DNA of 34,100 nucleotides, taken from contig JANQGT010000004.1 in NCBI GenBank assembly GCA_028277205.1, positions 104,348 through 138,447 of the forward strand, written 5' to 3'. Within the stretch, counting starts at the first letter, position 1; every line of letters starts with the position of its first letter. Positions 4,719-34,100 of the stretch are shown here, in pieces. The notes under the pieces were generated by a model. The model was not told where the DNA came from. It was given only the letters and a program-made list of their open reading frames with translations, and searched no databases. Made by a program: the position numbers and the translations under genes. This DNA is from Candidatus Altimarinota bacterium (GTDB taxonomy: Bacteria; Patescibacteriota; Gracilibacteria; BD1-5; UBA2023).

Positions 4719-5471
4719 TTACGTGTTTTTTCTTATTTCATACGTCTCATCATTACGAGCACTATTTCAAAAAATCCGCGCAAAGAGCGCTTCCTGCTCT
4801 CATTTCGAGAGTGTTCGATACGCGCCTTCAGGCAGATTTCAGAGGACGAGATTTTCGATGCGGATACGTTTCAGGCGTTTCACCGTATGCCCCACCGCCT
4901 CCACCATGCGGCGGATCTGTCGATTTTTCCCCTCTCGGAGCGTGATGAAAAAGCTTCACGAGTTGTGTCGACGAATGTCCGCGGGGAGCGTCCGAACACC
5001 ATCGAGGATATTCACCCCTCTGGAGAGTCGTGCGAGCTCAGAGTCTTCGATGCGTCCGTACACCGTCACGAGGTATTCTTTTTCGTGCTCGTATCGCGGA
5101 TGCATGAGAAAATTCGAAAGGCGTCCGTCATTCGTCAGCAGGATGAGTCCCGTCGTATCCTTGTCGAGACGCCCTACGGGAAAAATGCGCTCCGGAATGT
5201 CGACAATGTCGAGTATCGTTTTTTCTCATTTTTGTGCGCATGTCGTCACGATACCGCGCGGTTTATGCAGCATATAGTAGACAAGATCTTTTTGTTTCTC
5301 GACGATCATGTCGTCCATCTCCACCGTGTCGATCTCAGGATCTATCACCTGTCCGATATGGGCGATTTCACTATTGACGCGTACGAGCCCGGCGGCGATA
5401 TACTCCTCCGCTTTTCGGCGGGAGGCGATACCCGAGTCGGCGAGGTATTTATGCAGACGGAGTTTTGGCAT
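4719..5471 (-). CDS. RsuA/RluB-family pseudouridine synthase
   Basis: MPKLRLHKYLADSGIASRRKAEEYI...GRLDKDTTGLILLTNDGRL...[45 protein letters not shown]...; five TGA codons read as Gly; TAA stop. Confidence 0.92.
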
Positions 5472-5545
5472 GCTTATTTGCGCATTATCAGATAGTGGTG
5501 AGGCAATAGCGACAGAAGAGAGAAATCGTATAATGGTTAGCTCGA

Positions 5546-6427
5546 CTACGAATCGACGGGATTCGTAATGATACGCACTTCTTCTTCGAGGTCGATACCG
5601 TATTTCTCGCGGACGGTCGTTTTCGCGAGATCGCGCAGCGCGATGATGTCGCGCCAGTTTGCATTGTCGACATTCAGAAAAAAATTGCCGTGTCGCTCGC
5701 TGATCTCGGCACCGCCGATACGCGTTCATTTCAGTCCGGCATCGTCAATGAGTTTTCCGGCATAGTATGGATACGGATTTTTGAAAAATGATCCGCACGT
5801 AAATCCCTTCGGTTGTTTCAGCTGACGAAACTCGACACCGTCACGATACCGATCGGGGTCGAGATCGCGCGAGAGATCGAATGTCGCCGATACCACCAGT
5901 TTCGAGCGATCGGATTTGAGAATACTCGTACGATAGTCAAATTTCATATCCGCTTTCGAGAGTGTTTCAAACTCACCATTATCGACATTGTAGACACGCG
6001 CCGAGTGAAAATATTTTGCAGTATCCAGCCCGAAACATCAGGCATTTCCCACGACGGCGCCGCCGATAGTACCGGGCAGCCCCATCCATCGATCCATGAT
6101 GGGGAGATGGTGCTTTCGATCGAGAGCGACCACGAGCGGCGTGACGACCTCGCCCGCCATGGCAGTGAGCTGCAGACTTTCATCCAGCTCCCAGCCCTTC
6201 GGTGCCATACGGATGACGATCCCATCGTAGACATCGCACGCAAAGACGACATTTGATCCGCCGCCGATGATGACGTACGGGAGTGAATTTTCCCGTATGA
6301 ATGCGAAAATCTCCGGCAGATCATCGACTGTCTGGCTGTCTACTATGTCTACAAAGTAGCGCGCCGTCGCATCGAGACGGAGGGTCGTGTATTTTTTGAG
6401 GGGAATGTTTTGCTGAACGATTTGCAT
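5546..6427 (-). CDS. murB: UDP-N-acetylenolpyruvoylglucosamine reductase MurB
   Basis: YVIIGGGSNVVF, GLPGTIGGAVVGNAG (TGA at 6038), GFTCGSFFKNP, LIDDAGLKG (TGA at 5726), SERHGNFFLN; TAG stop. Confidence 0.93.
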
Positions 6428-6484
6428 GGACAATACGGCAATCTTATTGCAAAAAATTTTCGTAAATTCTATTTCACAGGTGAA

Positions 6485-9358
6485 TTATACCGATGCTTTT
6501 TTATTTTCAATGCAGCCATTTTCAAACCGCTGCATATGTCCCCACAGTGCCTCCCCCGTCGCAGATGTTTTGCATTTCATGCATCCGGCGACATTTCCGG
6601 TATACACGATTTTTCCTCCCTCGTCACCCCCGCGCGGACCAATGTCGATGATATGATCGGCGGCGGCGATGATATCCAGATGATGTTCGATGACGACGAC
6701 ACTATTGCCACGCGTGACCAGCTCGTGGAGGATATCGAGGAGTTTTTGCACATCGGAAAAATGCAGTCCGGTCGTCGGCTCGTCGAGGATGTAGAGCGTC
6801 TTTGACGTAGACACTTTCGCGAGATCAAAGGCAAGCTTTACGCGCTGCGCCTCTCCACCGGAAAATGTCGGAGCGGACTGCCCGAGCGTGATATAGCCGA
6901 GACCCACCTGCACGAGCGTGTCCAAAATGCGCCGGATCCGCGGAAATACCGAGAAAAATTCCGCCGCCTCTTCGACAGTCATGGCGAGCACCTCGGCGAT
7001 ATTTTTTCCCTTGTAGCGCACCTCCAGAGTCTCGCGATTATACCGTGAGCCGTCACAGGCTTCACAGGTGACGTAGACATCCGGCAAAAAGTGCATCTCG
7101 ATTTTTTTGACACCCGAGCCCTCGCACACCTCGCAGCGTCCGCCTTTCGTATTGAAACTAAAACGTCCAACTTTATAGCCGCGTTTTTGCGCTTCGACTG
7201 TGGCTGCAAACACCTCGCGGATCGCCGTAAATACGCCCGTATACGTCGCGACATTCGAGTGCGGCGTCTTGCCGATGGGAGACTGGTCGATGATGATCGC
7301 TTTGTCTACATTGTCCAGTCATTGCACCGAGTCGACAGCACCGATCATGGCTCCACTGCGGTGAAAATGCTGCATCGCGGCATTGGCGAGCGTGTCGAGT
7401 ATGAGTGTCGACTTTCCTGATCCCGACACGCCCGTGACCACCGTCATCACACCGAGCGGGATGTCTACTGTGACATGCTTCAGATTGTTTTCCCGAGCAT
7501 TTTTGAGAGTGATCTTTCCCGATGATTTGAGCTTTCGCTTTGGTCGTTCGATGCGCTTTACTCCGGACAGATAGCGACCCGTTTCAGTCTTAGAAATCTC
7601 TATCAGTTTTCGAGGCGTCCCGGAAAAAACGAGATCGCCGCCATGCACGCCGGCACCCGGACCGATGTCAATGACGTAGTCGGCAGCTCGCATGATGTCT
7701 TCGTCATGCTCGACGACGAGGAGCGTATTACCGATTTTGGAGAGTTTTTTTATATTGTCAATGAGTCGATGATTGTCCAGAGGATGCAGCCCGATGGACG
7801 GCTCATCGAGGATATAGATGATTCCTTCGAGCTTTGTGCCGATCTGCGTCGCGAGGCGGATGCGCTGACTCTCGCCACCCGAGAGCGTAGACGCCCGGCG
7901 CGCAAGTGTGACGTAGTCAAGCCCTACGCCATCGAGAAATTCTAGGCGCTCCACGATATTTTTGAGGATGTTTTTGGCGATCTTTGCCTCGTTTTCAGAC
8001 AGTGTCAATCATCGAAAAAACGCAAGCGCATCACGAACCGAGAGTGCCGTCACCTCGCCGATATTTTTTCCGCCCACGAGGATGAAGAGCATCTCCGGCT
8101 TCAGGCGCGAGCCTCCGCACGTCTCGCACGTCGCCTCCGTCATATAGTGAGAGAGACGTTTATTAAAGGAATTGTCCGCGGCGTCACTCTCCCGATAGCG
8201 GCGCATGAGATTATTGATGATGCCCTCATAGCGTGACTGAAACGTGCGATTTTTGAGTCGCATTTCCTCGGTCGCACGCACCGTCACCGGCTCGTCGTCA
8301 CCATACAAAATGACTCGGCGCGCCTGTTTCGAGAGCTCTGCGTAGGGAATATTTTTGGGAATGCCGTGCCGCTCGCAGACAGCGTCGAGAATGGCGAGAT
8401 AGTAAATATGATTGCTCCAGGGGAGGATCGCCCCCTCGGCGAGGGTCAGTGCAGGATTTACCACATCCTGCTCGCGAAATGTCACGCGCGTGCCGAGTCC
8501 ATGGCAGTCCGGACAGGCTCCATGATGCGAATTGAAAGAAAAGTGCGAAATGGAAAGCTCGCGAAGCGTATATCCGCACTCGGGACACGAGGCTTTTCGG
8601 GAAAAGGTCTCCGAATGCCGAGAATCAGACAAGAAAACAATGAGTCGATCGTCACCGAGAGTGTACGCGAGAGAAAGCGATTCTTTGAGTCTGGAAGTAA
8701 ATTCGTGGACATCTTTGTCGACATTGTAGACAAGTCTGTCTACAACGATGGCAAATGTGTCCGGATTCGCAAGCGGACCGAGGCGCTCATCCCCGACGCT
8801 TGAGACCTCGCCATCATCGAAATAGCGGACATACCCTCTTTCCAGTACGAGTTTTCGCGCATCCTCATGGGTCTCTATCGACTCCGAAATCGGCGCCAGA
8901 ATCAGAAATTTTGTCCCGTTTTCGAGTCCGAAAACATACCGAACCGTCTCTTCGAGCGTGTGTTTTTTGAGCTCTATATTCGGATGATCCGGACAGTACT
9001 GTCGCCCGATGGTCGTATACAGCAGGCGCAGATAGTCATAAATTTCCGTGATCGTCCCGACGGTCGAGCGCGGATTTGACGAGACGGTTTTTTGGCTGAT
9101 ACTGATAGTAGGCGAGAGTCCGCGAATCTCTTCCACATGCGTATCTTCGCTCATATTCGCGACGATCATACGCGCGTAGGTCGAGAGGCTCTCCAGATAT
9201 TTTCGCTGTCCCTCGGCATAGATCGTATCAAACGCGAGACTCGACTTTCCCGAGCCGGAGACGCCCGTGATGACCGTCAGCGCGTTTTTCGGGATCTTGA
9301 CGCTTATGTTTTTCAGATTGTGCGTGCTCGCATTGACGACTTCTAGAAAATCGGACAT
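6485..9358 (-). CDS. uvrA: Excinuclease ABC subunit A
   Basis: Starts [59 protein letters not shown]; three track ORFs join in one frame through TGA at 8009 (FFRG) and 7319 ([22 protein letters not shown]). Confidence 0.97.
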
Positions 9359-9517
9359 GGCAAGGCAAGAAGAAAGCAAAGAATCATGGTAGCCATTTTT
9401 TCATAATACTCAATACGAGGCGAGCCAAACACCCCTTTCGAGCACTTGCACAATGCAAAAAGAATTTTGAAACAGCAAGTATTTTCATAGGATGGGAAGG
9501 TTCCTTTCTCCAGATCC

Positions 9518-11302
9518 ATGTCAGATACTCCCCTCACACCGGGCGCGTCATCGCGCGCGCTCATCCTCCGTCTCGTGTCGAGACGAAAATGGCTCTGCGC
9601 GCTGCTCATTATCATCGTACTCATCACCTCCGTCGCGCCCATCGTCGATGCCATCATCATGCGCGAAATCATCGATCTCTTCAGTGATGCCGAGATCGCT
9701 GCCACCGACAAGTACGAACAGGGGCTCCGGCTGATCGCGATCATGACTGCGACTACCATCGTCGGGATTGCGCTCTGGCGTGTGAGCGGACTGCTTGGGA
9801 TGCGACTCTTTCCGCGCATGGGAAAGGATATTCGCCTCGAGCTTTTCGCGTACCTCGAACACCACACCCATCGCTATTTTTCCGATCATTTTGCCGGATC
9901 GCTCGCGACAAAGGTCTCGACCGTCGGGCGCGCAGTCCAGGAAATCATGGAAATGATCACCTGGGATTTCACACCGCAGATCGCCATGTTTCTCTACGCG
10001 TTTATCTTTTTTGCGTCTATCAATCTCGGCATTGCCCTGACGACTCTCGTGGTCGCAGCCGTGTTCTTTGCCATATTTTTTCTTTTTGGTGAAAAAACGC
10101 GTCAGCTCTCCCGCGCCCATGCAGAATCTCGCGCGACTGCACACGGGAAGCTCGTGGATTCGATCACAAATATGTGGAATGTTGCTTCGTTTGCACAGAC
10201 CGGGTATGAGCGCGATTATCTGGAGCGCTATGTCGAACAGGAGCGCAGTAATAATGTCGCCTCGTGGCGATTTCGTGAGATGCTGCGAATGATCCAGGCG
10301 TCTATCATGTACCTCGTCTCACTCGCGATGATGGCATACGCCATGTGGCTCTGGAGTCGAGGAAGTGTCTCGGTGGGAGAAATCGCGGTGATTTTTACCC
10401 TGATGACCACGATCCTCCGGGGCGTTCGCGAGCTCTCGTTTCGACTCATTGGATTTTTCGAACGCATCGGCGACATTCAGGAAGCACTGGAGGTCATCCT
10501 CGTCCCCCACGACATCGTAAACCGGGATAGCGCCACGCCGCTTTCGGCGCATACCGGGGAAATCCGGTTTGAGGATGTGTCATTCCGGTATCGGGACGGA
10601 CTGCCGAATATTTTTGAATGAATGAACCTAGCAATACAACCGGGTGAAAAGCTGGGACTCGTAGGAAAATCCGGTGCGGGAAAGTCGACGCTCGTCGCGC
10701 TCGTCCAGCGGATGTACGATGTCTCGGAGGGGCAGATCCTCATAGACGGACAGGATATCGCGGGTGTGACCCTCGAGAGTCTGCGCAGCGCCATCGCCGT
10801 CGTGCCGCAGGATCCCGTACTGTTTCATCGTACACTCGCCGAAAATATCGCCTACGCAAAACCGGGTGCGACGATGGATGAAATCGTGCGCGCGGCGGAG
10901 GAGGCAAATGCTCGGGAATTTATCGAGAGCATACCGGAGTGATACGACGCAAAAGTCGGGGAGCGCGGAGTGAAACTCTCTGGCGGACAGCGCCAGCGCA
11001 TCGCCATCGCCCGCGCAATCCTCAAGGATGCACCGATCCTCATCCTCGACGAGGCGACGAGCGCCCTCGACTCCGAGAGCGAGCACCTGATCCAGAAGGC
11101 GCTCTGGCGGCTCATGGAGGGACGAACGACCCTCGTCATCGCCCATCGACTCTCGACACTGCGACACCTTGATCGTCTGCTCGTCTTTGAAAAAGGCAAA
11201 ATCGTCGAGCAGGGGAGACACGACGAGCTCATCGAAAAACCGGTTTCAGTGTACCGAGCGCTCTGGGAACGACAGGCGGGAGGATTCGTACAGGATCAGT
11301 AG
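9518..11302 (+). CDS. ABC exporter (fused transmembrane and ATPase domains, MsbA-like)
   Basis: Multi-TM N-terminus then [29 protein letters not shown] (TGA 10619-10621) and [48 protein letters not shown] (TGA 10940-10942); TAG stop. Confidence 0.95.
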
Positions 11303-11408
11303 ACCGGTTTTAGACTGTCTTTTATGATTTCGACAAGCGCATTATGGTTGACTTTTTTAGGATATTTTGATAGGCTTTCGAGCGCATGTATTTTTTAAAA
11401 TACTCATT

Positions 11409-12887
11409 ATGAAGTATTTGCTCTGATGCATTCTGGGGTGTGCGTTCTTTGCGTTTGCTCCTCTTTCTATCTCGGCGGAAAGTGCGAGTCACAGTTTCGA
11501 TCTCGCTCAGTTTGATATGGATTTCGATTTCGAAAGCGAAGCGGGAACCGGAGACTATACGATGGATGGCGATGATGTGATCGTGGACGCAGACGGTGAA
11601 TTCACGCTCGGAGTCAATGCGGAGGCTGATACGATCACCGTCTCGGAGGGTGCGAGTCTGACACTCGGGGTCAATTCCATCGTCCAGGAGATCATCCTCG
11701 AAAATGCGGCGTCGGTTTCCTTTGCGACAAATGCCGATGTCGGGATGATCACCGGAGACGCGGAGTCATTGACCGTCTCTACAAACTCCATAGTGGGTAC
11801 CGTCGAGGGAAATTTTCAGACTCTGACACTGCAGACAAACTCTACGATCGATACGCTCATCACCTCGGTTTCGGGGACGACCGATATCGGCGTCAATGCG
11901 AGCGTAGATTTCATTCATCTAAAGACAAATACGCTCATCGCCTCGACAAATGCCGATATCACGGAGGGTATCATATACGTCTATGAGGATTTTGACGGAG
12001 GAGTCAATACGATGTTTTCGGGAAAACTGACCATCTACGGCAATACCGCGCTATCCGTCAATAGCGATGTAGACGGTCGCTACTGCGCACTCGGAAAGGT
12101 CGGTCTGGGAGTCAACGCAATGGTGCAAACCTACGGCTGGGACGGGCTGCTGTGAAATGTCGATCCGATTCTGGATTTTATGACGACGGACGACATGACC
12201 GAGTTTTCCGAGGTCCGCGATATTACCGAGGACTTCGATGTTCGCATAGGCGACGCTTTCGAGACGATTCGCACAAAAAATAGTCGCATCGCGTCAGTTC
12301 AGTCTCAGATCGCTGCCGAGCAGCGCAGAGAGGCGCAGGCAGCGAGTGAAAATCCCGACGCATCGGTCGACACCTCGGCGCGTCTCGCACTCGAGGGTGA
12401 GCTCTCGACACTGCGAAGTGAAAAAGAAGCAGCTAAAAATGAGGCTCTTGCAGATATCGAGGCGACATTTTCCGAGCTCGAGCCGTATATCGATGAGGAC
12501 GAGCGCAATAGAAATCTCTTTTCAAAAATCGAAAATATCTACCGCTACGCCGTCGAATATGAAAACGAAGGGCAGATCTACAATATCTGCAACAACACGG
12601 AGATAACGGGCAGTGTCAACTCTGCCTACTATGTCAACGGTAATGAGTTTGTACTCGGATGAATGACGATCGTACGCCGTCAGATCATCTCCGACGCAGA
12701 AGCCGCATCGGTCGATCGACTCATGGATCGCATGTCGGACGACAAGCTCGCAAATGTAAACGCAAAAGTGGACACGATCATGGGAAAACTCGCGGAAAAA
12801 GACGAGCTGAGCGACTCAAATGAAGAGCTTGCGAATCTGCTCGCAGACGTGCAGGAGATGATCCGGACAGAGATGCTCTACGACTAA
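11409..12887 (+). CDS. Secreted repeat protein: signal peptide, about 10-rung Asn-containing beta-solenoid, C-terminal coiled coil
   Basis: MKYLLGCILGCAFFAFAPLSISAESA...; three in-frame TGA (11424, 12153, 12660) join three track ORFs; 18-19 aa repeats such as SLTLGVNSIVQ/SVSFATNADVG/SLTVSTNSIVG/TLTLQTNSTID. Confidence 0.85.
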
Positions 12888-12902
12888 TAGCGACAGTGTA
12901 TG

Positions 12903-12930
12903 CAAAAAGCCTCCTCTCGGGGGCTTTTTA
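12903..12930 (+). terminator. Rho-independent terminator after the solenoid gene
   Basis: AAAAAGCCTCC-tctc-GGGGGCTTTTTA, directly after the TAA/TAG stops at 12885-12890. Confidence 0.85.
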
Positions 12931-13118
12931 CTATCGAGCAATAGTGAGACAGGATTGAGATAATCTCAGCTAAAAACCAAAGTCGAAAGTAACTATAATT
13001 GAAGAATCGCATCTCTGATAGAGCCCGGTTTTGGATTGCAGTCTGTAGATCTCTCGAATAATTCGGTCATTCGCGCTTTTACGCAAAACGAATATACTAT
13101 GCTCATAACAATTTCGCT

Positions 13119-13595
13119 ATGGGCTGGTTTTGAGAAAAGGATACCCTCCGCTACGATCCGGATTCGGCTTTTCGGTCGGGACGATCGTCGTCCGATACGC
13201 TGCGTGCTCCGGAGATTTTTGTCGATGATACTGCGCACGCGCGGCAGCGAACGCACCGACGCGCACATGAGACGGAGCACCAAACCACGCAAACACTGTC
13301 TCGCAGCGATAGCGAGCACACCCCGGAAACACTCGACTCCTGGATCCGTCGTCGCATACGAGAGGCGGATATGTCCGACCACGAAAAAGACAAGGCAATC
13401 GCCGCCCTCACGCGCATCCACGACGAACATGCGTGGCTCGCTCACTGGCTCGATATGCCCCTCCAGCGAGTCATCCGCCGAGCGATCATCCCGCTCGTAC
13501 TGCTCCTGATATTCGTACCGCCGGCGGGGATCGCCCTCGGGATTTGACTGCTGGTACTGTACATCTCGACACTGCATTCGAGCGCTCGTCCGTAG
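13119..13595 (+). CDS. Hypothetical membrane-anchored protein with hydrophilic His/Thr/Glu-rich N-terminus (absent from ORF track)
   Basis: MGWFGEKDTLRYDPDSAFRSGRSSSDTLRAPEIFVDDTAHARQRTHRRAHETEHQTTQTLSRSDSEHTPETLDSWIRRRIREADMSDHEKDKAIAALTRIHDEHAWLAHWLDMPLQRVIRRAIIPLVLLLIFVPPAGIALGIGLLVLYISTLHSSARP*; TGA at 13131 and 13545; TAG stop. Confidence 0.75.
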
Positions 13596-13598
13596 CTT

Positions 13599-14459
13599 TT
13601 ACAGTCGCGCATGCAAGCGCTCCCGACAGGCGTCGCCATACTCGGGATCGGCGAGCGCGTAATCCAGACACGCCTCGAAATAGCCGAGTATATTGCCGGT
13701 GTCATAATCTCTTCCTGAAAGCGTACAGGCGGTAAAGCGTCCGGCATTCGCGAGCTCGGTCCAGACAATCGGAAACGTTTCGTTTTCGGTCGTCTCTGCG
13801 AGCTCGGCAAGGCGGTCGAGGACATCCGGCGTCAGGACGAAACGTCCTACGTTCGCGAGTCGGGATGGCGTTTCATGAGGCTTTGGCTTTTCCAGAAAGC
13901 GTGCGACAGGGGCGATTTTCTCATCTATATCCAGAGTTTCGACGATACCGTATCGGGACACCTGTTCGTCTGCTACGGAAATAACGCCGACCACGGACAT
14001 CTGACACTGTGCGTACGCGGAGACGACTTCGATGGATGCCGTAGTACTCTCATGAAAAATGAGCTGATCCCCGTATATGACGAGCACCGGCTCCCCGGCA
14101 GCAAATCCCCGTCCGTGCAGGAGTGCATCACCCGTTCATCGCATCTCGGTCTGACGGATGACAGTGATATTCGCGAGTGAGGATAGGCTGCGTATCTGCT
14201 CCAGATATGTCATTTTTCCGTCGCGTTCGAGCGCTGACTCGAGCTCGGGATTGCGATCGAAGTGATCCTCGATCGCTCGTTTTTGCCGGGAGGTAATGAG
14301 ACAAATATCCGTGATGCCGGCGCCGACCGCCTCCTCGACGAGGTGCTGGATGATCGGCTTTCCTGCGATGGGAAACAGTTCTTTGGGGACAGCCTTGCTC
14401 GCGGGCAGCATGCGCGTCCCGTATCCCGCGACCGGGATGATGCATTTCGTGATGGGCAT
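13599..14459 (-). CDS. galU: UTP--glucose-1-phosphate uridylyltransferase
   Basis: MPITKCIIPVAGYGTRMLPASKAVPKELFPIAGKPIIQHLVEEAVGAGITDICLITSRQKRAIEDHFD...TEMRG(TGA 14136)DALLHGRGFAAGEPVLVIYGDQL...; TAA stop. Confidence 0.94.
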
Positions 14460-14595
14460 GATAGTACAGTCCAAGCGCTAAAAAGCACCATCTTATAAAT
14501 TTTTCATCTGAAAACAACGTATTTTATCGTCACGGGTAGTCGACAGATCGGGCATCGCGAAGCTTTCAAAAACCGGTTTTCAAAAAATCTCCGAA

Positions 14596-14622
14596 ATAAA
14601 AATGCCCCCGGAGAGGCATGCT
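14596..14622 (-). terminator. Rho-independent terminator of the rpsP-KH domain gene pair
   Basis: Minus strand: CATGCCTC-tccg-GGGGCATTTTTATTT, just past the KH-protein stop at 14634. Confidence 0.7.
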
Positions 14623-14633
14623 CGAGTCGGGAT

Positions 14634-14882
14634 TTATTCGACGATCTTTAAATTTACCCGTCGATCCGACTGCGAACCATAGACACGCACGAGCGTGCGA
14701 AGCGCCTGGATCGTACGACCGTCGCGACCGATGATCGTGCGCATATCCTCTTTATTCACGCGGAGTGTGACGAGTGTGCCGAGTTCATCGACAGTTTCCT
14801 CGACGACGACATCGTCGGGATGCGCGACCATGGAGGCGACGACGAATCGGACAAACTCTGATGCCGACAAAGACGGGAGCAT
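14634..14882 (-). CDS. KH-domain RNA-binding protein (KhpA/YlqC-like)
   Basis: MLPSLSASEFVRFVVASMVAHPDDVVVEETVDELGTLVTLRVNKEDMRTIIGRDGRTIQALRTLVRVYGSQSDRRVNLKIVE; IIGRDGRTI KH loop; next to rpsP. Confidence 0.85.
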   Translation of the reverse strand: MLPSLSASEFVRFVVASMVAHPDDVVVEETVDELGTLVTLRVNKEDMRTIIGRDGRTIQALRTLVRVYGSQSDRRVNLKIVE

Positions 14883-14892
14883 GGATCGGAGA

Positions 14893-15132
14893 CTATGAAG
14901 CGAGGTGTCCGGATTTTTGCAGGATTTTTTTGAGGCTGTCGGAATACTGGGCGCCGTTTGCGACATAGTTATTCGCCGCATCCATATCGATATCGAGCTC
15001 TTTTGTGATGGGATTGTAGTGCCCGAGCACTTCTTGGTAGCCGTGTTTTGCCGACTGACGATGCTCCGTGAGCACGATACGGAAAAATGGAACGTGTTTG
15101 CGACCGGCGCGGGAAAGGCGGATTTTGAGCAT
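14893..15132 (-). CDS. rpsP: 30S ribosomal protein S16
   Basis: MLKIRLSRAGRKHVPFFRIVLTEHRQSAKHGYQEVLGHYNPITKELDIDMD... Confidence 0.95.
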   Translation of the reverse strand: MLKIRLSRAGRKHVPFFRIVLTEHRQSAKHGYQEVLGHYNPITKELDIDMDAANNYVANGAQYSDSLKKILQKSGHLAS

Positions 15133-15142
15133 AAATAGTAAA

Positions 15143-15367: not shown

Positions 15368-15378
15368 AAGCTCTGAAT

Positions 15379-15463: not shown

Positions 15464-15492
15464 AGACCGGACCCCGAAAGCAAGAAGCAGGA

Positions 15493-15690: not shown

Positions 15691-15701
15691 ATCATGATAA
15701 T

Positions 15702-16122: not shown

Positions 16123-17319
16123 TTACTTGATGATTTTCGAGACGACTCCCGATCCGACCGTGTGCCCTCCCTCGCGGATCGCGAAGCGAAGCCCCTGATC
16201 CATGGCGATGGGACACCCGAGCGTGATATTCATAGAGATATTGTCGCCGGGCATGACCATCTCGACACCGTCCGGCAGCGTGATCTCTCCGGTGACGTCC
16301 GTCGTACGGAAATAAAACTGCGGCTTGTACCCCTTGAAAAACGGCGTGTGACGTCCTCCCTCTTCCTTTGTGAGGATATAGATCTCCGCCTCAAACTGTG
16401 TGTGCGGCGTGATCGACCCGGGCTTTGCGAGGACCTGTCCGCGCTCGACCTGTTCGCGCTCGATACCTCGCAGCAGCAGTCCGGCATTGTCTCCCGCCTG
16501 CCCTTGATCGAGCTGCTTGTGAAACATTTCGACTCCGGTGATCGTCGTCTTTTGCGTATCGCGAATTCCGACGATTTCCACCTCTTCTCCGACCTTGATG
16601 ATTCCCTGCTCGATCTTTCCCGTGACGACGGTACCGCGACCTTTGATAGAGAAAATATCCTCGATAGGCATGATAAACGGCTTGTCGAGCGGACGATCCG
16701 GGACGGGGACATACGCTTCGAGTTTTTCAAAAAGCTCGAGGATGCACTTTGCTCCGTACGGCTTGTCGTAGTCGGTAGGATTTTCTAGAGCGACGAGACC
16801 GGAACCGCGAACGAGCGGCGTGTCGTCTCCGGGAAATTCATACTTTGACAAAAGATCGCGGATCTCCATTTCGACGAGCTCGAGCATTTCTTCATCGTCG
16901 ACCATGTCGCATTTATTCAGAAATACGACGATGTAGGGAACACCGACCTGACGAGCGAGAAGGATGTGCTCGCGAGTCTGCGCCATCGGTCCGTCCGTCG
17001 CGGCGACGACGAGGATGGATGCGTCCATCTGCGCCGCACCCGTGATCATGTTTTTGACGTAGTCGGCGTGTCCGGGACAGTCGACGTGCGCGTAGTGACG
17101 ATTGTCTGTCTCGTACTCGACGTGCGATGTATTGATCGTGATACCGCGCGCCTTTTCCTCGGGCGCTTTGTCGATAGCATCAAATGCCATTGCTTCACCG
17201 GTTCCGTACTTCGCATGCAGCACGTAGGTGATAGCAGCGGTCGTCGTCGTCTTTCCGTGGTCGACGTGACCGATGGTTCCGATATTGATATGCGGCTTGG
17301 AGCGATCGAAAGTAGCCAT
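16123..17319 (-). CDS. tuf: Elongation factor Tu
   Basis: [34 protein letters not shown]...[20 protein letters not shown]...; uninterrupted, no in-frame TGA. Confidence 0.98.
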
Positions 17320-17447: not shown

Positions 17448-17451
17448 GGTG

Positions 17452-22865: not shown

Positions 22866-23462
22866 ATGCCGCACGAACCACGCGACACCGATACGGCTGT
22901 GTCAGCCGATATCGGGCTCGAGGATATCGAAACACTCACCGAGTCGCTCTCGGAAAGCGAATCACCCGAAAACGCCATCCAAATCCGCGAACTGCAGGAG
23001 CAGCTTGCGCGTGCGCAGGCGGACTATCGAAATCTCGTCAAGCGTACCGAACAGGAACGTGCCGACATGGGACGATACGCAGTCGCGAGCGTCGCAAAAA
23101 AATTTTTGTCTATGGTCGATGATCTGGAGCGCGCGCTCGCCACAGTGCCCGAGGCGATAGCAGGCGGGGAGTGGATACGCGGGATCGAGGCGATGCACGC
23201 AAAGCTCGTACGCGAGCTGGGATCGCTTGAGATCATGGCATTCGACTCCGTGGGATCCATCGTGGACGAGCGCTACCACGAGGCTCTGTCGCGCGGTCCC
23301 GGTCCCGCCGGGACGGTCGTCTCGGAGTTTGAGCGATGATATATGCTCGGCGACAGTGTCCTGCGTCATGCGAAAGTCGTCGTCGGATCTGACGAAATAT
23401 CGACAAGTCCGGAGACAACGAGCACTCCAACAGCGGATGAATCCGACAGTACGGGAAAATAG
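22866..23462 (+). CDS. grpE: Nucleotide exchange factor GrpE
   Basis: LQEQLARAQADYRNLVKRTEQERADMGRYAVASVAKKFLSMVDDLERAL...GIEAMHAKLVRELGSLEIMAFDSVGSIVDERYHEALSRGPGPAGTVVSEFERGYMLGDSVLRHAKVVVG... (TGA 23337 = Gly); TAG stop. Confidence 0.92.
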
Positions 23463-23719
23463 TGACTGCTCGAATTGCATTCAGTGAGCGGTGAAGATCT
23501 CCGACTTTATGATTTGACTCAAAGATATCGAATTTTCCAAAAGAGCACGAACCACAAACAAAGCGTATTTTAGAAAGTACGAAAAGGGCTTTGAGCGTCG
23601 TTGATGATTTTCAGAAAGCGTGAAATACGATCGCTGATCATGAGGCTGTATCCACGCCGAAATCATGAAGCTTTCAACTCGCAGCATGATACCCCCAGCC
23701 GGCAGGCAGGGAGTATCGT

Positions 23720-23751
23720 AAACATCCAAAGCTGAAACGCTTTGGATGTTT
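23720..23751. terminator. Perfect 13-bp inverted repeat, terminator-like
   Basis: AAACATCCAAAGC-tgaaac-GCTTTGGATGTTT; about 260 bp past the grpE stop. Confidence 0.6.
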
Positions 23752-24087
23752 CTATCTCAGGCTTTGTTTGTCCGGAATCTTCTTTTGTTTGGTGTTTTGC
23801 ATATGCATATATTCGGATAGTGTTTTCATGTACGTTGTTTATGAAAATATTTTCGGGGATGATAGCTTGATAATAAGAATACTGTGATGACTGCAGCATA
23901 TATAGATGCAATTGCTTTGTCGGTGTGATTTCATATGCTTCCTGCTGTTATCTCATCTAAGCCCCAGCCGGGAGGGAGGGTTTTTTTGGGGGGGGGATAA
24001 AAAATAAACTTGCATATTTGTATTTTCGAGTACTATTTCCTGCGCTTTCGTATTCAAGCGAGGCGATATTTTTTCCCTACCGTTTCC

Positions 24088-24315
24088 ATGAAAAAGGACA
24101 TTCATCCGAAATTTTTCAAACAGACGACGGTCATTTGTTCCTGCGGACACACGTTTGTGACCGGGAGTACCATCGACGGCGAGATCCGCGTGGAGACCTG
24201 CCGAAACTGTCATCCGTTTTATACCGGTGAGAGTCGTATCCTGAAAACAAGCTCCGTCGACAAATTTTACGCGCGGCAAAAAAAGACCGAGCAGATACAG
24301 CAAGAAGCCGTATAG
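24088..24315 (+). CDS. rpmE: 50S ribosomal protein L31
   Basis: MKKDIHPKFFKQTTVICSCGHTFVTGSTIDGEIRVETCRNCHPFYTGESRILKTSSVDKFYARQKK. Confidence 0.95.
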   Translation: MKKDIHPKFFKQTTVICSCGHTFVTGSTIDGEIRVETCRNCHPFYTGESRILKTSSVDKFYARQKKTEQIQQEAV

Positions 24316-24324
24316 CCGACAGCC

Positions 24325-24828
24325 ATGAACGAACACGAGCTTTTGGCGCTCCTGAAATCGCTCGACGTCGAGTACGAGTACCATGCGCATCCGGCGGTAT
24401 TCACCTGCGAAGAAGCCCGGGATCACGCGCGAAATATTCCGGGTTTGCATTCGAAAAACCTGTTTTTACGAAACAAGAAAAAGGACTGCTACTATCTCAT
24501 GAGCGTCCAGGCGGACAAGCGCGTGGACATCATGCGCCTCGCGAAAATGATAGGGGAGACGAAACTGTCGTTTGCCTCAAGTGAAGATTTGCTTGAGATT
24601 TTGCAGCTGACTCCCGGATCCGTCACGCCGTTCGGTCTCGTCAATGATCGTGAAAACCGGGTTCGATTTTACCTGGACCGGGATCTGACAGTGGATCGCG
24701 TCGGATTTCATCCGAATGCAAACACTGCGACGCTCGTCATTGACATGCAAAATTTTTCAAAATTTCTCGTGCATACGGGACATACGCGCATCGAGATCGA
24801 CGTACCGGTGCGAGAAATGTCGTCATAG
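24325..24828 (+). CDS. YbaK/ProX-family aminoacyl-tRNA editing protein (prolyl-tRNA editing-like)
   Basis: MNEHELLALLKSLDVEYEYHAHPAVFTCEEARDHARNIPGLHSKNLFLRNKKKDCYYLMSVQADKRVDI...LTPGSVTPFGLVNDRENRVRFYLDRDL...VGFHPNANTATLVI. Confidence 0.85.
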   Translation: MNEHELLALLKSLDVEYEYHAHPAVFTCEEARDHARNIPGLHSKNLFLRNKKKDCYYLMSVQADKRVDIMRLAKMIGETKLSFASSEDLLEILQLTPGSVTPFGLVNDRENRVRFYLDRDLTVDRVGFHPNANTATLVIDMQNFSKFLVHTGHTRIEIDVPVREMSS

Positions 24829-24909
24829 TATCGACGAGCGCGACCGGTTTTCTGGAGTGCGGTACCGGTATTCGTGAAAATGCGGGACATCCAATAACGG
24901 CAGCACGCT

Positions 24910-25938
24910 CTATCCCGTATCCCGCAGCAAAAAGAAATTGAACACCGCGTAGCTCGCCACGAGCAAGAGTACACCGATCGCGATGTAGAGGAGGATATTT
25001 TTCGCTTTTTGCAGGCGATCCTCATTTCCGGCGCTCGTGAGCACGAGAAATCCGGCATAGACGATCAGCAGGACGATGGCGATACTGATAAAGCTATTGA
25101 AAAAATTTATGATCGTGACGGCGATGCGGATCGTGCCAGAGAGATCCGGATCCTCCAGCATACATCGGGACGTACGAAAAAACGTATTGTCCGAGCAGTC
25201 TTCGTCCGGACGTCCGTAGATAGAGACCACGAGCACCTCGGATACTTTGACGATGATGAATCCGAGGATAGCATAGAAAATCTCCACGCGCCCCTTTTTC
25301 GCCTCCTCATTGTCCTGACTCGTAAAGGTGATGCGAAAAAACGAATAAAACGCAAACCCGAGAAAGAGAAACGACGCAAGCGTCTGCAGCAGCGACGTAA
25401 ACGGATTGACGATTTCCACGAGGATCTGGTATGCCGAGTAGCCCCCGGCGCGACCGATATCACGACCATACAGAGAAAAAGCAATCGAGTACGCGCTCTG
25501 CATGATGACGATGGCGACGGTCGTCCAGATGATATTGGCACGCCATTTTTTCAGATCATCCTCGGTCCCATTGCTAAAGAGGATCATGAACACCCCGACA
25601 AAGAGGTAAATGACCGCGATGAGCACTGCGAGATTTTTCATATCGCGCGCGAGCTGTAGCAAAAAGTCTCGCGATCCGTACGCGCCGGAGCGACGAATGT
25701 CAAAAAAATAGTGATTGAATCGACTCTCGAATTCGTCGATATAGCTGTCTTTCGCAGAGCTTCGGGGTGGAGCATCCTCCAGATCGAGATCGCGGGTGGT
25801 CGGCGGCGTCCTAGCACCAAACTCGAAATCTATCTGCGCAAAGGCGTCCGAGACCGGTATCCAGAGTCCGGCGAGAGCGCACAATCCGAGAACAGTGAGA
25901 CGAGAAAGAGAGGCGATCATGGAAAGAGAAGTAGTCAC
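24910..25938 (-). CDS. Multi-spanning membrane protein with signal peptide, type IV secretion-like inner-membrane component
   Basis: SP then KNLAVLIAVIYLFVGVFMILFSNGTEDDLKKWRANIIWTTVAIVIMQSAYSIAF...IAVTIINFFNSFISIAIVLLIVYAGFLVLTSAGNEDRLQKAKNILLYIAIGVLLLVASYAVFNFFLL; VirB2/TrbC-like helix-loop-helix spacing; TAG stop. Confidence 0.65.
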   Translation of the reverse strand: MTTSLSMIASLSRLTVLGLCALAGLWIPVSDAFAQIDFEFGARTPPTTRDLDLEDAPPRSSAKDSYIDEFESRFNHYFFDIRRSGAYGSRDFLLQLARDMKNLAVLIAVIYLFVGVFMILFSNGTEDDLKKWRANIIWTTVAIVIMQSAYSIAFSLYGRDIGRAGGYSAYQILVEIVNPFTSLLQTLASFLFLGFAFYSFFRITFTSQDNEEAKKGRVEIFYAILGFIIVKVSEVLVVSIYGRPDEDCSDNTFFRTSRCMLEDPDLSGTIRIAVTIINFFNSFISIAIVLLIVYAGFLVLTSAGNEDRLQKAKNILLYIAIGVLLLVASYAVFNFFLLRDTG

Positions 25939-25945
25939 AAAATGG

Positions 25946-28900
25946 CTATGCGGACGGAGTCAGACCGATGCGCGCCTCGATTTCCATATCGACGTACTCC
26001 TTTTTTCGACCGTGGGCGACGCGGGAGTATTCCTTTATGATGCGGGCGACATCGGTATTTTTATAGGTATTGTCCCAGATGGTTTTCATGTCAAACGGGC
26101 GCGAGGAGGCATTGTCGATATTGAGCTTGACGTATGTCGTAAAGTTTGCGATGCTGATAATATCCTGCTGCGAGAGGACGGGCGCGTATTCTTTTTCGAG
26201 GTATTCGGCATCCTCCGCACCGACCTTGAAGCTCATGATCGTCCCCGCGTTTCCGAATACGGCATCCTTTATGGACGGCTTTCCGCCGCTGTGGGGATCC
26301 TGTCCGCCGATCTGCGCGATAAACTGGTGCGCCATGATGAGTGCGAGACGGTATTTTCGTGCCTCGGAGAGGATCTCGCCAAATGTGTCCGTGGCAAAAT
26401 TTTGAAACTCGTCGACGTAGAGATAGAAATCCTTTCGGTCTTTCTCGGGCATATCGGCGCGACTCATCGCCGCCATGTTGATTTTGGAGACAAAGATAAG
26501 CCCCAGAAGTTGCGCATTGAGATCTCCGATGAGTCCCTTCGAGAGATTGACCATGAGGACTTTTTGATTGTCCATGATCTCTCGAAAATTGAACGCGCTC
26601 TTTGGCTGACCGATGATATTTCGGACAGTGGTATTGGTGATAAATGGTCCGAACTTCGCCGAAAAATACGGAATGATTTCCTGTTTTTCCCGATCTCCGG
26701 TGCTCGCGTATTCATGCTCCCAAAATGACTTGACGACCGGATTTGTGACCTTTGCGACCTTTCGTCGCATAAACGCCTCATCCGCGAAAATGCGCGGAAC
26801 GTCGATGATGGTCGCCCCCTCTTCTTCGTCTTCCATGAGGGTCAGCGCCCCATTTCGAAAATAGTGCTGCAGTCGCGGACCAAATATTTCTTCGTCGAAA
26901 ATCTTTATAAAAATGCTCGTGGCATCGAGCGCCGCACGGTCTCGCTCGATCGCTTTTTGCACGGGATCGTCGGAGATGACCTCCAGGATATTCATCCCCA
27001 TGGGACGCTCGTAGTCTCCGGGGTTGAAGACGATGACGTCTTTCGCCCGCTCCTTTGGTGTGAAAGCGAGGATATCCTCCACGAGATCGCCGTGCGGATC
27101 GACGACGCCGAGTCCCTCGCCATTCCAGAGATCCTGACGCGCCAGATACCCGACGAAGACCGACTTTCCTCATCCGGATTTTCCGATGATATAGTGGTGT
27201 CGTCCGCGATCTTTTTTGGAAAAGTATATGGGTGTTTTGGTGCTCCGATACTCATTCCACCCCATCAGTACGCCATCGCGATACAGCGGAAATCCGCCGA
27301 AGTGCCGGTGATGCTCTTTTTTCACGGGCATTTTTCCGGGGTCTTTCGGCTTACCTTTCATAGCTCAGTCGGTGTGGATCTCCACCGCCTCGTCAGTGGT
27401 CGTGATAAAACTGCGATGTTCATCCCGGACGAGATTGCTGTTTTCATCGACTCGCAGATACGATCCGTCCTCGGTGCGCACGTTTCCGGTGCTATCGCGC
27501 TCGTAGTCCTCCATGATGAGCGGATCGTTCATCTTCTTCAGATTTGGAGGGATCGGGAGCATTTTGTACTCGAGCCAGCGGATGAGCGGCGAGCGATTGT
27601 ACGTGATGTCGGGAAAGTGATAGATGGTCGACAGCTCGTCGGATGAATAGTTGCTCTCGTACTGAAAAAATCCCATGAGCCGGTATTTGTACGCGAAATA
27701 CCGAAGCGGCGCGATGATCGGCGCGAAGAGGTCTTCTATCTGGGGGTTGTCGAGTTTGTTGTTGTATTCGTCGGTAAAAATGCTCGTGGCAAGTACGAGA
27801 TTATTGAGCGCAGAATCAACCTTTTCCGGATCCTCACTCGCGACCAGGATCCGAAATGCGCCACAGTACGACGGCTGTCCCGCTGCCTCTCCGACGGCTT
27901 TATGAGACTCTTGTTCCGCTTGGTTGAATATTTTATACGCATCACCGTCGCTCGCACCGGGATGATTGTTTCATGAGCTCATGCTCTGCATCGCCCCCTC
28001 ACTGTCGACGAAAAACTGCATGATCCAGTATACAGGCGCAAATATTGTTCCGATGACATTCCAGATATTTCCGTATCCCTTTTTATAGTTTCCTTTTGCG
28101 ACCAGTCCCGCCGCCGCTTTGGCATGCCGGTTCCAGCTTGCACCGACCGGTTTCAGGACGATCTGCACCACCGCTTTGTCTCCCGGATTGAGTCCACCGA
28201 AAGCGTTTGTAAAGCTCGAGAGCGGATCATCTTCGAAGTATTTGAATGTCTTTATGGGATAGATATCGTCGTATTCTTTTGCGACGCTCGCCGCCCGCAG
28301 CGTATATCCGCGCGGCTTGAGGTGAAAATATTTTTCCTTTGGGATCTCACGCACCTCGGCATCGGGGTAGTTTGCCGTCACCTGCTGGACGATGATGGAC
28401 CGGTACGACCGGTACGACACGACGAAAAAATGCACCTGCCCCTCGTCGTACACGAGCTCCAGACTCATCTTTGAGTGCTGGAAAATAAAATCCATGATCG
28501 TCTCGAAAAAGGTGATGGCACTGATTTTGTGCAGCCCTTTGTAGACGATGGACATGATCCCCACTTTTTCCTTGAAGTCTTTTTTCGTCTCGCGCTCTTT
28601 GTCGAGCTTCGAGTCGGCACGGGGGAGTGTGACTTTCAGGTAGACGAGATCCTTTGCGGCATACAGCTCAAATGCGAAACGCACAAGTTTGAGAAATACG
28701 TACGTGGCGATGACGACGACGATGAGCGTCCCCAGAAATCCGAGAAACTCCAGAAACATGCCGCCGATATCCCACGACCCCTCGTCGCCGGAGTCGGGCT
28801 GGCGCTGCTCGGTGGTAGTACCGGTTTGATTTTCCGCGGAGCGCGTCCGGACGATCTGCGCGGATGCGTCGGGAATGAATTCGAACATAGAAATATCCAT
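25946..28900 (-). CDS. About 984-aa membrane-tethered VirD4/TraC-like type IV secretion ATPase
   Basis: Four track ORFs share one frame joined by TGA at 27971, 27365 and 27170; HYIIGKSG-G(TGA)-GKSVFVGYLARQDLWNGEGLGVVDPHGDLVEDILAF...DFYLYVDEFQNFATDTFGEILSEARKYRLALIMAHQFIAQ...; N-terminal TM helix FLGTLIVVVIATYVFLKLV. Confidence 0.88.
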
Positions 28901-29000
28901 ACGAAAATTTTGTCTCTCGCCACAAGCGTAGCATATTTTTCGGATGCGCGCAAAAGTCGGCTTGTCATTCTCAATGACAATCGAATTATAAATTCCACCG

Positions 29001-29027
29001 AAAAACCACCGGTTTACTAACCGGTGG
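29001..29027 (-). terminator. Perfect 9-bp stem hairpin with A/T tract
   Basis: Plus AAAAA-CCACCGGTT-tact-AACCGGTGG; on the minus strand the stem is followed by TTTTT. Confidence 0.5.
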
Positions 29028-29365
29028 ATGGAGAGTATCCGAATGATAGTGAGGACGAATGTAATTCAAGAGCGCATGCAATCATGAAAAAAGGCATGTA
29101 CAGAAAATACGTACACGCAATTTTCTCGCACGAAAAAAGTATTTTTGTAGAGTACGACTGCCTGCGATAAAGGTCCCATCATCACAAAGCAGTCAATGAA
29201 ATGAAAGGAATACGACACTCTTTTCACGAGTCGTTTCGCAATTATGTATCGAGAAAATCGTAAAACCTCCTCTTTTCAGAGCAATTCACTATGAGGAGCT
29301 TTTTCCGATTGTATTCTCGTAAATCACGCTATAATCATTTTTCTCAACTTCGTAAGTATCTCGCA

Positions 29366-30919
29366 ATGTTTTCGCGCATCTACTCCGTCGCCATGCGCGG
29401 ACTGTCGGGAGTACAGCTCGATATCGAGGCGGATATCGCACGGGGACTGCCGGCATTTTCCATCGTGGGACTGCCGGATCTGGCGACGCAGGAGAGCCGG
29501 GAGCGGGTGCGCTCTGCTATCAAAAACAGCGGCTATGAATTTCCCATCGCGCGCATCACGGTCAATCTGGCACCCGCCGACGTACGCAAAAAAGGGGCAT
29601 TTGATCTGCCGATAGCCCTCGCACTGCTCGCGCGGCAGCGAGACTTTTCACAAAAACTCCTGGATACGAGCCTCTTTCTGGGAGAGCTCGCACTCGACGG
29701 CACGCTTCGATCGGTCGCGAGCGTATTGCCGTCTGCCATTTTTGCGCGGGAGCAGGGATTTGCTCGCATATTCGTCCCGGCGGGAAATGCGCGCGAGGCG
29801 GCGATGATCCCCGATATCGACGTCGTCTGAGTCGAGACGCTCTCGCAGGCGGTGGGCATGCTGTCGGAGGATATACCCCTCCGCATCGTAGAAAAAGACA
29901 CGGATATCATCACCTCACTCGCATCACGCACACAGGAGCGTACAGTGGATTTTTCGAGTGTCATCGGACACGAAAGCGCAAAACGCGCCCTCCTGATCGC
30001 GGCAGCATGAGGACACAATATCCTCATGTCCGGACCTCCCGGCAGCGGAAAGACGATGCTCGCCTCCGCATTTGCCGGGATACAGCCTCCCATGCGATTC
30101 GAGGAGATGCTGGATGTCTCGCGTATCTACTCTGTCGCGGGGCTGCTCTGCGATACCAGTCCGCTTATCGCGAGTCGCCCGTTTCGCCGGGTACATCATA
30201 CCGCGAGCGCCGTCAGTATCGTCGGCGGCGGACGCGAGTCGGGACCCGGAGAGATCTCGCTCGCGCATCGGGGCGTACTTTTTTTGGACGAGCTTTTGGA
30301 GTTTGACACCCGCCTGCTGGAGACGCTGCGGCAGCCACTGGAGGACAGCGAGATCACCATCACCCGAGCAAATGCGAGCTGTACCTATCCCGCCAGATTT
30401 CAGCTCGTCGCCGCTATGAATCCGTGTCCGTGCGGCTATCTGGGCGATCCGGAGATCCCCTGTCGCGACTCGCCCCGCGAGGTCGAGCGCTATCGTCGCC
30501 GACTGTCCGGACCTCTCCTCGATCGGATGGACATCGTGCTGCATCTGCCGCGAGTCAAGACCGACGAGATCCGCGATGCACGCGAGGGGGCGAAATCCAG
30601 CTCCTCCGAAGAACTGCGAAACCGTGTCGAGCAAGCCCGTGAAATCCAAGCAAAGCGATTTGAAAATGCATGAATTTTTACCAATAGCGAGATGAAAAAT
30701 ACGCATATCGAAATACACTGCCAGCTCCAGTCGGACAGCGCGGATTTTTTGGATCGGGCGATGCGTCGATTTTCCCTGTCGACGCGCGCGTATTTTCGGC
30801 TCCTGCGTGTGGCGCGTACCATCGCCGACATCGAGGCATGTGAAACCATCACACTCGCACATATCTCCGAAGCACTCTCCTATCGACAATCGTCGGATAT
30901 GGAGCATGAGAGCGGGTAG
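29366..30919 (+). CDS. comM: YifB/ComM-family Mg chelatase-like AAA ATPase
   Basis: MFSRIYSVAMRGLSGVQLDIEADIARGLPAFSIVGLPDLATQESRERVRSAIKNSGYEFP...IAAAGGHNILMSGPPGSGKTMLASAFAG (TGA 30008)...GVLFLDELLEF...AAMNPCPCGYLGD...NAGIFTNSEM (TGA 30671); also TGA 29828; TAG stop. Confidence 0.95.
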
Positions 30920-30970
30920 AGATTTATTGATAATGAGGAGGTTGCTTTCACAACAATTTTATGAGAAAAT

Positions 30971-30988
30971 GGAGTGGTTATTCACTCC
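30971..30988 (+). terminator. Hairpin downstream of comM
   Basis: GGAGTG-gttatt-CACTCC about 50 bp after the comM stop; no strong U-tract. Confidence 0.35.
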
Positions 30989-31014
30989 TCTAAATCCACC
31001 AATGAGAAGATCAG

Positions 31015-31121
31015 AAAGCGAGGATATGAGTTTTCGGGCTCAGAGATTGCAGAGGATTCGGCGACTCCCGCATTGCGCGTAAAGCGAGGATATGACTTTT
31101 CGGGCTCAGAGATTGCAAAGG
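31015..31121. repeat. Two 41-bp direct repeats (39/41 identical) separated by 25 bp
   Basis: aaagcgaggatatgagttttcgggctcagagattgcagagg (31015-31055) and aaagcgaggatatgacttttcgggctcagagattgcaaagg (31081-31121). Confidence 0.9.
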
Positions 31122-31262
31122 CACATGCAGACCAGTAGATGAAATAATCACAATAATCCGATGCATATCACGATTTTGCATATCGACAAAAAAGCAAAAA
31201 TTGCCACTATAAAAAATCTCTGATAAAATACTCATGACCCCTCCAGTATCCTCATATCGATC

Positions 31263-31571
31263 ATGCGAAGGACCGTATCGGTGTTACTCATGCTCATCTC
31301 GCTCATTTCACTGTCCTCGTGCGCATTCGTCGGGGACGATCCCATCAGCCCCCGAGAAGAAGACGCAGTCTACGGATTCGTCTCGGGATTCGGACATGGA
31401 CTGCTCGCTCCGTACTCGCTGCTCGCCCGGCAGGTCGCGGATGTGGGGATGTACGCCACACCAAACAACGGCTTTATGTACGACGCCGGATTTTTGATCG
31501 GGGTATTTTTCGCGATCTCGCCCGTCGGATTTTTCGCACTCGTCGGCGCCGTAGTGCTATTGTTGCTTTAG
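31263..31571 (+). CDS. Small membrane protein with lipoprotein-like signal
   Basis: MRRTVSVLLMLISLISLSSCAFVGDDPISPREEDAVYGFVSGFGHGLLAPYSLLARQVADVGMYATPNNGFMYDAGFLIGVFFAISPVGFFALVGAVVLLLL; LSSC lipobox; TAG stop. Confidence 0.75.
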   Translation: MRRTVSVLLMLISLISLSSCAFVGDDPISPREEDAVYGFVSGFGHGLLAPYSLLARQVADVGMYATPNNGFMYDAGFLIGVFFAISPVGFFALVGAVVLLLL

Positions 31572-32524
31572 GCTTTCGCGGGCATGGCAGTCCCGATGAA
31601 AAAAGGATGTGCCTGCAGCTCGCGATAAACGCTAAAGAGAATCGTGGACACGAGACCGTCTATGAGAAAAAACCGGGCAAGGTGGACGACATATCCGTCC
31701 CCGAGCATCTCAAACAGAGTATGCGCCATGCCAAACACGAGGAAAAACGGCAGTGAGACGAGGATGATTTTTATGACTTTGAGGCGGGAAAGATCCCAGC
31801 TCCCGCTCTGAAGCGCGCGCGCCGACAGACGCTCATCCGAGATCGAGAGCGGGATATACGCCCAGACAAACCGGAAAACTATCCAGACGAGGATGATGAT
31901 CGCGAGCAGTGTCAATAGATTGACGATCCACGGGGCGAGAGCAGACAGCGGCAGAGAGATCCCGACGAGAAATACCCCCAGCACCCACACGACGAGCACT
32001 GCGAGTACCGGCACCGCCTGGATAGCGCCGAGCGCGACAAATGTCCCGAGACGACGAAGCGATCGATACGGATAGTCGGCGAGAGTGAGGGGCGCTCCGC
32101 GATGATACGAGTCCAGCAGCCGAAACAAGAGCGTATACGCATACGCGATAAAAAGCGCCATGATGGAAAACGCGATGAGTCCGCAGAGGACCGCCACGGC
32201 GAGCTCTCGCCAGTTTTCCACCAGAAATTCGTATCCGGCGAGCCCCAGCGACTCTCACGCGCCGGCGGCAAACAGCGTGATATCCCGGATAACCTCGGCA
32301 GTCAAGCGATCCTGCAGACGATAGTAGACTGCGACCACACCGATGAGAAATGGGATCGACAGCACGATACCCCCGATCGTCGCGTAGATAAAGAGCGCCA
32401 TTTTATGCAGACTCCAGTGCAGAAAGTACCGGTACGGAAGTATCGTCGAATACGCAACGCGAGAAAAACAATCAAGATATCGAGAGAGCATGACAGCCGA
32501 GAAAATAAAGACAATGCAAATCAT
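31568..32524 (-). CDS. Multi-pass membrane protein of unknown function
   Basis: Track ORFs 32255..32524 and 31568..32221 are one frame joined by TGA at 32255 (FAAGAG-ESLGLAGYEFLVENWRELAVAVLCGLIAFSIMALF...); TAA stop. Confidence 0.8.
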
Positions 32525-32787
32525 GGTATGAAACGAGTGCGTGAAATCAAGTGGCAGATTGCGAGAGATGATATTACCGGTATGATGATTGCGTCTTTGT
32601 GATGGGATCAGACGCCATCAAACACGAAACCTCCGATCAAAATGGGACTTTTGAAAAACGCACGGCATCCAAGACAGATGCCATCCTGTATTTTTTCGTG
32701 ACGATTTTTTCAAAAGCAAACAAGGGATTTTTTTGCCAATCTGGGACTTTTTCGTAGACTTCTAAATTGTTCTTTTTGCTTTGGCAT

Positions 32788-34100
32788 ATGCTTCGGACTC
32801 ATACCTGCGGCGAGCTGTCCGCATCACACATCGGCGAGACTATCACTCTCTGCGGCTGGGTCGCAAATCGACGCGATCACGGCGGCATTATTTTCATCGA
32901 TCTGCGGGATCGGTATGGCATCACACAAACCGTTTTCGATCCGGAGGAGTCCGAGCATGCGTGGAAAATCGCGGATACGTTTCGATCGGAGTACGTCGTA
33001 CGACTCGTCGGAAATGTCCGGAGACGTCCGCAATGACAGCAAAACAGCGACCTCAAAACCGGGGAAATCGAGATCATCATCGACACCGCAGAGATCCTCA
33101 CGCGTTCGCAGACGCCTCCGTTTGAGATCTCGGAGCATGCAAACGCAAGCGAGGATATCCGCATGCGCTACCGCTATCTGGATCTGCGCCGCGGTCGGAC
33201 AGTGCGAAATATCGAGTTTCGAGCACGTATGAATCACTTTACCCGAAACTGGTTTTTCGAGGCGGGATTTCTGGAGGTGCAGACCCCGCTTTTCACCGTG
33301 TCGAGTCCGGAGGGCGCGCGCGACTACTTGATCCCGTCGCGCATCCACCAGGGAAAATTTTACGCGCTGCCGCAGGCGCCTCAGCAGTACAAACAACTCC
33401 TGATGGTCGGCGGCGTCGATCGCTATTTTCAGCTTGCACCCTGCTTTCGGGATGAGGATCCGCGCGCCGATCGCCATAGCTGCGAATTTTATCAGATCGA
33501 CTGCGAGATGAGTTTCGTAGAGCAGGATGATGTCTTTGCCATCGTAGAGGGCTACATCCGTGATCTGGTGCGCGAGGTCGTACCGGATAAGCATATCACC
33601 GACAATTCGTTTACGCGCATACCCTATCGCGAGGCGATGGATCGCTACGGCACGGACAAGCCGGATATCCGATTCGGCATGATGTTTGAGGATATGACGC
33701 AGGATTTTCGACAGAGCGGTTTTTCCGTATTTGCCAGTGCTGTCGCGAGCGGAGGCGTCGTGAAAGCCATGAAACTGGAAGCAAAAACAATGACTCGGTC
33801 GGAGATCGACAGTCTGACCGAGATAGCAAAAAGTGCCGGTGCCAAGGGGCTCGCGTATATCGTGTACGAGGCGGAGGAAGCCAGAAGTCCCATCCTGAAA
33901 TTTCTCGCGGATACGGAGCTGCGGGCGATACAGGAAAAGTTGTCGCCGAAGCCAGGCGACATGATTTTTTTCGCGGCGGACGAGTACGACACTGCCGTGA
34001 AAGTGCTCGGCACCGTACGAAACACGCTCCGAGACTGGTACGATCTCGCCGATGCGCGAGCGCTCGCATTCGCGTGGATCCCGGATTTTCCCATGTACGA
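32788..34100 (+). CDS. aspS: Aspartyl-tRNA synthetase (3' truncated by window edge)
   Basis: [52 protein letters not shown]...[22 protein letters not shown] (TGA 33034)...[104 protein letters not shown]... Confidence 0.96.

Follow-up and report, generated by a model that had tools for sequence, protein, structure and literature searches.

Genes and In-Frame TGA Codons of the Window

The window, that is, the whole stretch of 34,100 nucleotides analysed here, carries genes for UvrA, MurB, EF-Tu, GrpE and AspRS, along with an ABC exporter, a VirD4/TraG-like coupling protein and several other proteins (Table 1). An earlier first-pass annotation had started at position 4719, a start that is arbitrary; the whole window and its contig belong to one genome. 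Two of the open reading frames are longer than the genes in them: the N-terminal extension of a longer UvrA frame (6485-10552) is spurious, and so, probably, is the N-terminal third of the frame that holds the coupling protein. With a gene for a T4SS pilin domain protein beside it, the coupling-protein gene may be part of a locus for type IV secretion or conjugation.

Table 1. Features of the window, numbered from its first nucleotide; the window itself and tRNA(UCA) are given in coordinates of contig C2 of the genome (G000)
Feature	Position	Strand	TGA codons and remarks
Window	G000:C2:104348-138447		Contig also carries tRNA(UCA)
tRNA(UCA)	G000:C2:94985-95063		~9.3 kb upstream of the window, same contig; found with ARAGORN
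Very long secreted-looking protein	1-4200	-	S-layer homology domain; 0 TGA in 1400 codons
RsuA-type pseudouridine synthase	4719..5471	-	Pfam S4 + PseudoU_synth_2; TGA 4839-4841 (LVL-TGA-NLP), Gly column
MurB	5546..6427	-	TGA 6038-6040 (GNA-TGA-C) and 5726-5728 (GLK-TGA), both Gly columns
UvrA	6485..9361	-	TGA 7319-7321 (VQ-TGA-LDNVDK), Gly in solved UvrA
MsbA-like ABC exporter	9518..11302	+	TGA 10940-10942 (IPE-TGA-YDA), Gly in relatives
GalU-like UTP-glucose-1-phosphate uridylyltransferase	13599..14459	-	TGA 14136-14138, Gly column
EF-Tu	16123..17319	-	Without TGA
GrpE	22866..23462	+	TGA 23337-23339 (ER-TGA-Y), Gly column
T4SS pilin domain protein	24910-25920	-	Adjoins the VirD4-like coupling-protein gene
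ORF with VirD4/TraG-like coupling protein	25946..30862	-	Walker A TGA 27170-27172 (GKSG-TGA-GKS)
YifB/ComM Mg-chelatase-like ATPase	29291..30919	+	TGA 30008-30010 (AAA-TGA-GHN), Gly column
AspRS	32788..34098	+	TGA 33034-33036 (PQ-TGA-QQN), Gly in best solved AspRS; runs past window end

The first-pass annotation had proposed that TGA falls exactly where glycine is conserved, and had named ten motifs. Nine of these are present in the expected frame with the TGA as described, and the tenth, in GalU, was confirmed against solved structures, in which EPLG is aligned with its EMRX (AspRS, the ABC exporter and UvrA were compared with solved structures as well). The motifs are mostly correct, but they are a selected list, and "exactly" goes too far. 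The second TGA of UvrA (FFR-TGA-LTL) corresponds to Gly or Asn in the compared sequences, that of the exporter (IFE-TGA-MNL) to Asn in relatives, and the Walker A site of the coupling protein to Ser in a relative (GKSGSGKS); two of the three TGA codons of YifB/ComM align to Ala and Pro in a relative. Such occurrences at Ala, Pro, Asn, Ser and also Lys columns are expected for a sense codon.

Meaning of UGA from Alignments

The meaning of the codon was determined by translating TGA as X and aligning the ORFs of the genome to those of two standard-code genomes of the same class that possess RF2 (G103 and G046); UvrA and RF2 loci from other bacteria completed the comparison set. Codons were tabulated over about 417 kb on seven contigs, in 108 homology-supported stretches and using only the best match per genomic place. 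This set supersedes an unfiltered tabulation (39/94 Gly) that was blurred by antisense shadow ORFs. The 42 well-aligned TGA sites face glycine in 26 cases, serine and alanine in four each, proline and lysine in two each, and single residues in the remainder. Under the substitution pattern of the genome itself, glycine is favoured over the next-best meaning, alanine, by a log10 likelihood ratio of 21. The proportion of Gly at TGA sites (62%) is lower than that found for GGN codons in the same test (76-85%).

UGA is also the codon that mycoplasmas read as tryptophan (code 4), which is the commonest reassignment of UGA in bacteria. Nevertheless, tryptophan faces none of the 42 well-aligned TGA sites and does not rank among the top four meanings of TGA, whereas it is found at 54 of the 83 TGG sites, so that UGG is still a tryptophan codon. 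Furthermore, the tRNA with the anticodon UCA, discussed below, combines glycine-type acceptor bases with U73 and not G73. The alignments by themselves already refute a tryptophan meaning, which is very improbable.

With regard to termination, it had been claimed that all complete genes read end in TAA or TAG. In the present analysis, 38 of 51 C-terminal alignments stop at one of these codons within 30 codons and with no intervening TGA, and among the 51 no gene ending in TGA could be shown. Long open stretches reach a coverage of 2.39 when TGA is opened, up from 0.77, in comparison to about 1 when TAG or TAA is opened; this is weaker evidence than the alignments, since shadow frames inflate coverage at about 50% GC.

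The Decoding Machinery: tRNA(UCA) and Release Factors

The tRNA(UCA) has a cloverleaf structure with a 6-bp anticodon stem, and its stems show compensatory changes across 14 relatives. Its acceptor bases (G1:C72, C2:G71, G3:C70 and U73) are those of bacterial tRNA-Gly identity, the criterion being taken from PMC8629427. Of the 20 genomes sampled from the order, 19 have a homolog that matches over its full length of 79 nt with 82-90% identity. ARAGORN labels this tRNA "SeC", and in-frame TGA codons could in principle reflect selenocysteine, scattered readthrough or pseudogenes. However, with its 79 nt, short variable region and 7-bp acceptor stem the molecule does not resemble tRNA-Sec. TGA is, in addition, found in core genes of every sampled contig, where it makes up about 6% of the glycine codons, which is too many for selenocysteine, and its alignment to Gly and not to Cys already refutes an explanation of this kind, to which very little weight can be given.

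The Pfam RF-1 domain has one match in the whole genome. This sole class-I release factor is identified by NCBIfam as prfA/RF1 (485 bits versus a cut-off of 400), and its own gene holds two in-frame TGA codons; solved RF1 has Gly at the position of one of them and Thr at that of the other. Across the class, 93 of 145 genomes reach the cut-off of the prfB model for RF2, whereas all 20 genomes sampled from the order stay below it. The absence of RF2 rests on this order-wide pattern rather than on the assembly of the genome itself, which is 93.4% complete.

A tRNA-Gly(GCC) was not found in this genome, where GGC accounts for about 25% of the glycine codons, while the other four-codon boxes do have GNN tRNAs. 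In two relatives (G079 and G135) the tRNA-Gly(GCC) gene adjoins that of tRNA(UCA). Its lack here is possibly an assembly gap.

The Genome and Its Base Composition

The genome comprises 1.06 Mb in 52 contigs. GC amounts to 52.4% in the window, and the values for 417-693 kb of the genome lie at 51.9-52.5%. The first-pass annotation had estimated the window by eye at about half GC, which holds, and considered this high for the lineage. The latter needs to be tempered: a range of 0.21-0.53 has already been published for Absconditabacteria plus Gracilibacteria (PMC8629427), so that 52% is near the top of the range but within it, and the genome of another member of the family (G079) likewise has a GC of 0.52.

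Contamination of genome bins by recoded contigs does occur (PMC8629427), and the window might be such a contig inside a bin that uses the standard code. However, TGA is a glycine codon throughout the seven tabulated contigs, the genes for RF1 and RpoB on contig C14 also hold TGA, and contamination of the bin is only 0.28%. A contig of the bin with RF2 or with TGA-terminated genes was not found. The chance that the window is foreign to its bin is negligible.

Lineage and Relation to Known Codes

In trees, UvrA from the window clusters with five records of Candidatus Gracilibacteria (support 97/99, 54-61% identity), and in RpoB the order to which the genome belongs forms a clade (support 100/100). 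The DNA stems from a member of the Gracilibacteria (BD1-5) group, an uncultured bacterium of very small size that reads UGA as glycine. This code is already known for the group; PMC8629427 cites Rinke 2013 for it. The present genome shares with the known representatives the meaning of UGA, tRNA-Gly(UCA), RF1 as the only class-I release factor, the small size and the UvrA and RpoB clade. It differs in GC, which is 33% in the BD1-5 genome studied by proteomics (PMC4032931) and 29% in a complete BD1-5 genome (PMC6851277), and in that UGA is only a minor glycine codon.

Absconditabacteria (SR1) resemble this genome in reading UGA as glycine and in lacking RF2, but there CGA and CGG have become tryptophan codons (PMC8629427). 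Here both are arginine codons, CGA being aligned to Arg at 111 of 202 sites and CGG at 71 of 127. The arginine tRNAs for these codons, tRNA(UCG) and tRNA(CCG), retain A20 and A73, which indicates that this second change is not present.

A second family of the class that lacks RF2 (f13) may be the Absconditabacteria group. Its tRNA(UCA), detected with a tRNA model, has an anticodon loop unlike that of the order and was hence missed by an exact pattern. Both tRNAs are well conserved within their groups and have a 6-bp anticodon stem, while a BLAST search with the order's tRNA(UCA) does not find that of f13, nor does the reverse. This could reflect a common origin and rapid divergence, or separate origins.

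A Probable History: Early Reassignment, Later Drift in GC

The first-pass annotation had proposed a reassignment of UGA to glycine (table 25). The checks outlined there, namely tabulation of the TGA columns, searches for tRNA-Gly(UCA) and for RF2, and phylogenetic placement, all agree with it. We consider it highly probable (about 0.97) that the DNA of the window is chromosomal and comes from a cell of the Gracilibacteria (BD1-5) in which NCBI genetic code 25 applies; its GC of 52% is best accounted for by later drift. The simplest reading puts the reassignment early and the change in composition after it, since tRNA(UCA) and the loss of RF2 are order-wide.

With RF2 lost, nothing would terminate at UGA, and RF1 would handle the protein ends at UAA and UAG. 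The tRNA(UCA) would presumably receive its glycine from the usual glycyl-tRNA synthetase and insert it at UGA. This charging and decoding are suggested by the identity elements and by proteomics of a BD1-5 relative, which provided peptide evidence for glycine at UGA (PMC4032931). The code would be older than the divergence of the order, and the GC of 52% would not mark the setting in which it arose, but a later compositional drift in one genus, by which UGA may have become a minor glycine codon. It is the comparison of genomes that points to such a drift.

UGA Usage across the Order

Across 17 genomes of the order, the share of TGA among glycine codons declines as GC rises (Spearman -0.93). 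At 26% GC or less, TGA constitutes 46-81% of the glycine codons; at 52% GC, its share is 4% in G079 and 6% in the present genome. The latter is a clean case of a genome with balanced base composition that has retained the reassignment, so the code can be kept without low GC. The order as a whole (22-52% GC, UGA from 81% to 4%) offers a graded series for the uptake and retirement of a reassigned codon. There is also a practical side: errors of gene calling under the standard code are harder to notice at 50% GC than in the AT-rich relatives. One genome (G091) is off the trend: at 33% GC, UGA represents 79% of its glycine codons, against 17-42% in members of the order with similar GC.

A Possible Separate Reassignment

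A genome of about 0.7 Mb from another family of the class (G012, family f15) uses TGA at 77 of the 79 glycine codons of RpoB and at 430 of 501 over 26 homologous stretches, a range of 86-97%. Its RpoB is placed among families that have RF2 and the standard code, and the branch that separates the order and f13 from the rest, G012 included, has a support of 98/96. This placement stems from one protein of about 775 residues, for which a single recoded clade gives a borderline p of 0.037 in the AU test. A match to RF1 or RF2 was not found in G012, nor a UCA tRNA among its 26 tRNAs. It can tentatively be imagined, although we consider it unlikely, that UGA became a glycine codon more than once in the class, with G012 as a separate case in which it has nearly replaced GGN. 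G012 is a lead and may belong to a group that is already known to others. The main code is known; the graded usage of UGA and this lead are the parts worth keeping.

Stop Codons and Their Context

It was also considered whether UGA codons that directly precede a stop are relics of its former function. UGA is the last sense codon five times in a first set of 95 genes (0.42 expected) and seven times in 380 genes (2.1 expected). In the latter set, however, other codons ending in A are equally enriched, such as CGA (26 versus 5.6), TCA and AAA, and the idea was rejected in favour of a context preference before the stop. As for the stops themselves, TAG (238) is more frequent than TAA (142) in this genome, a codon that its relatives do not favour.
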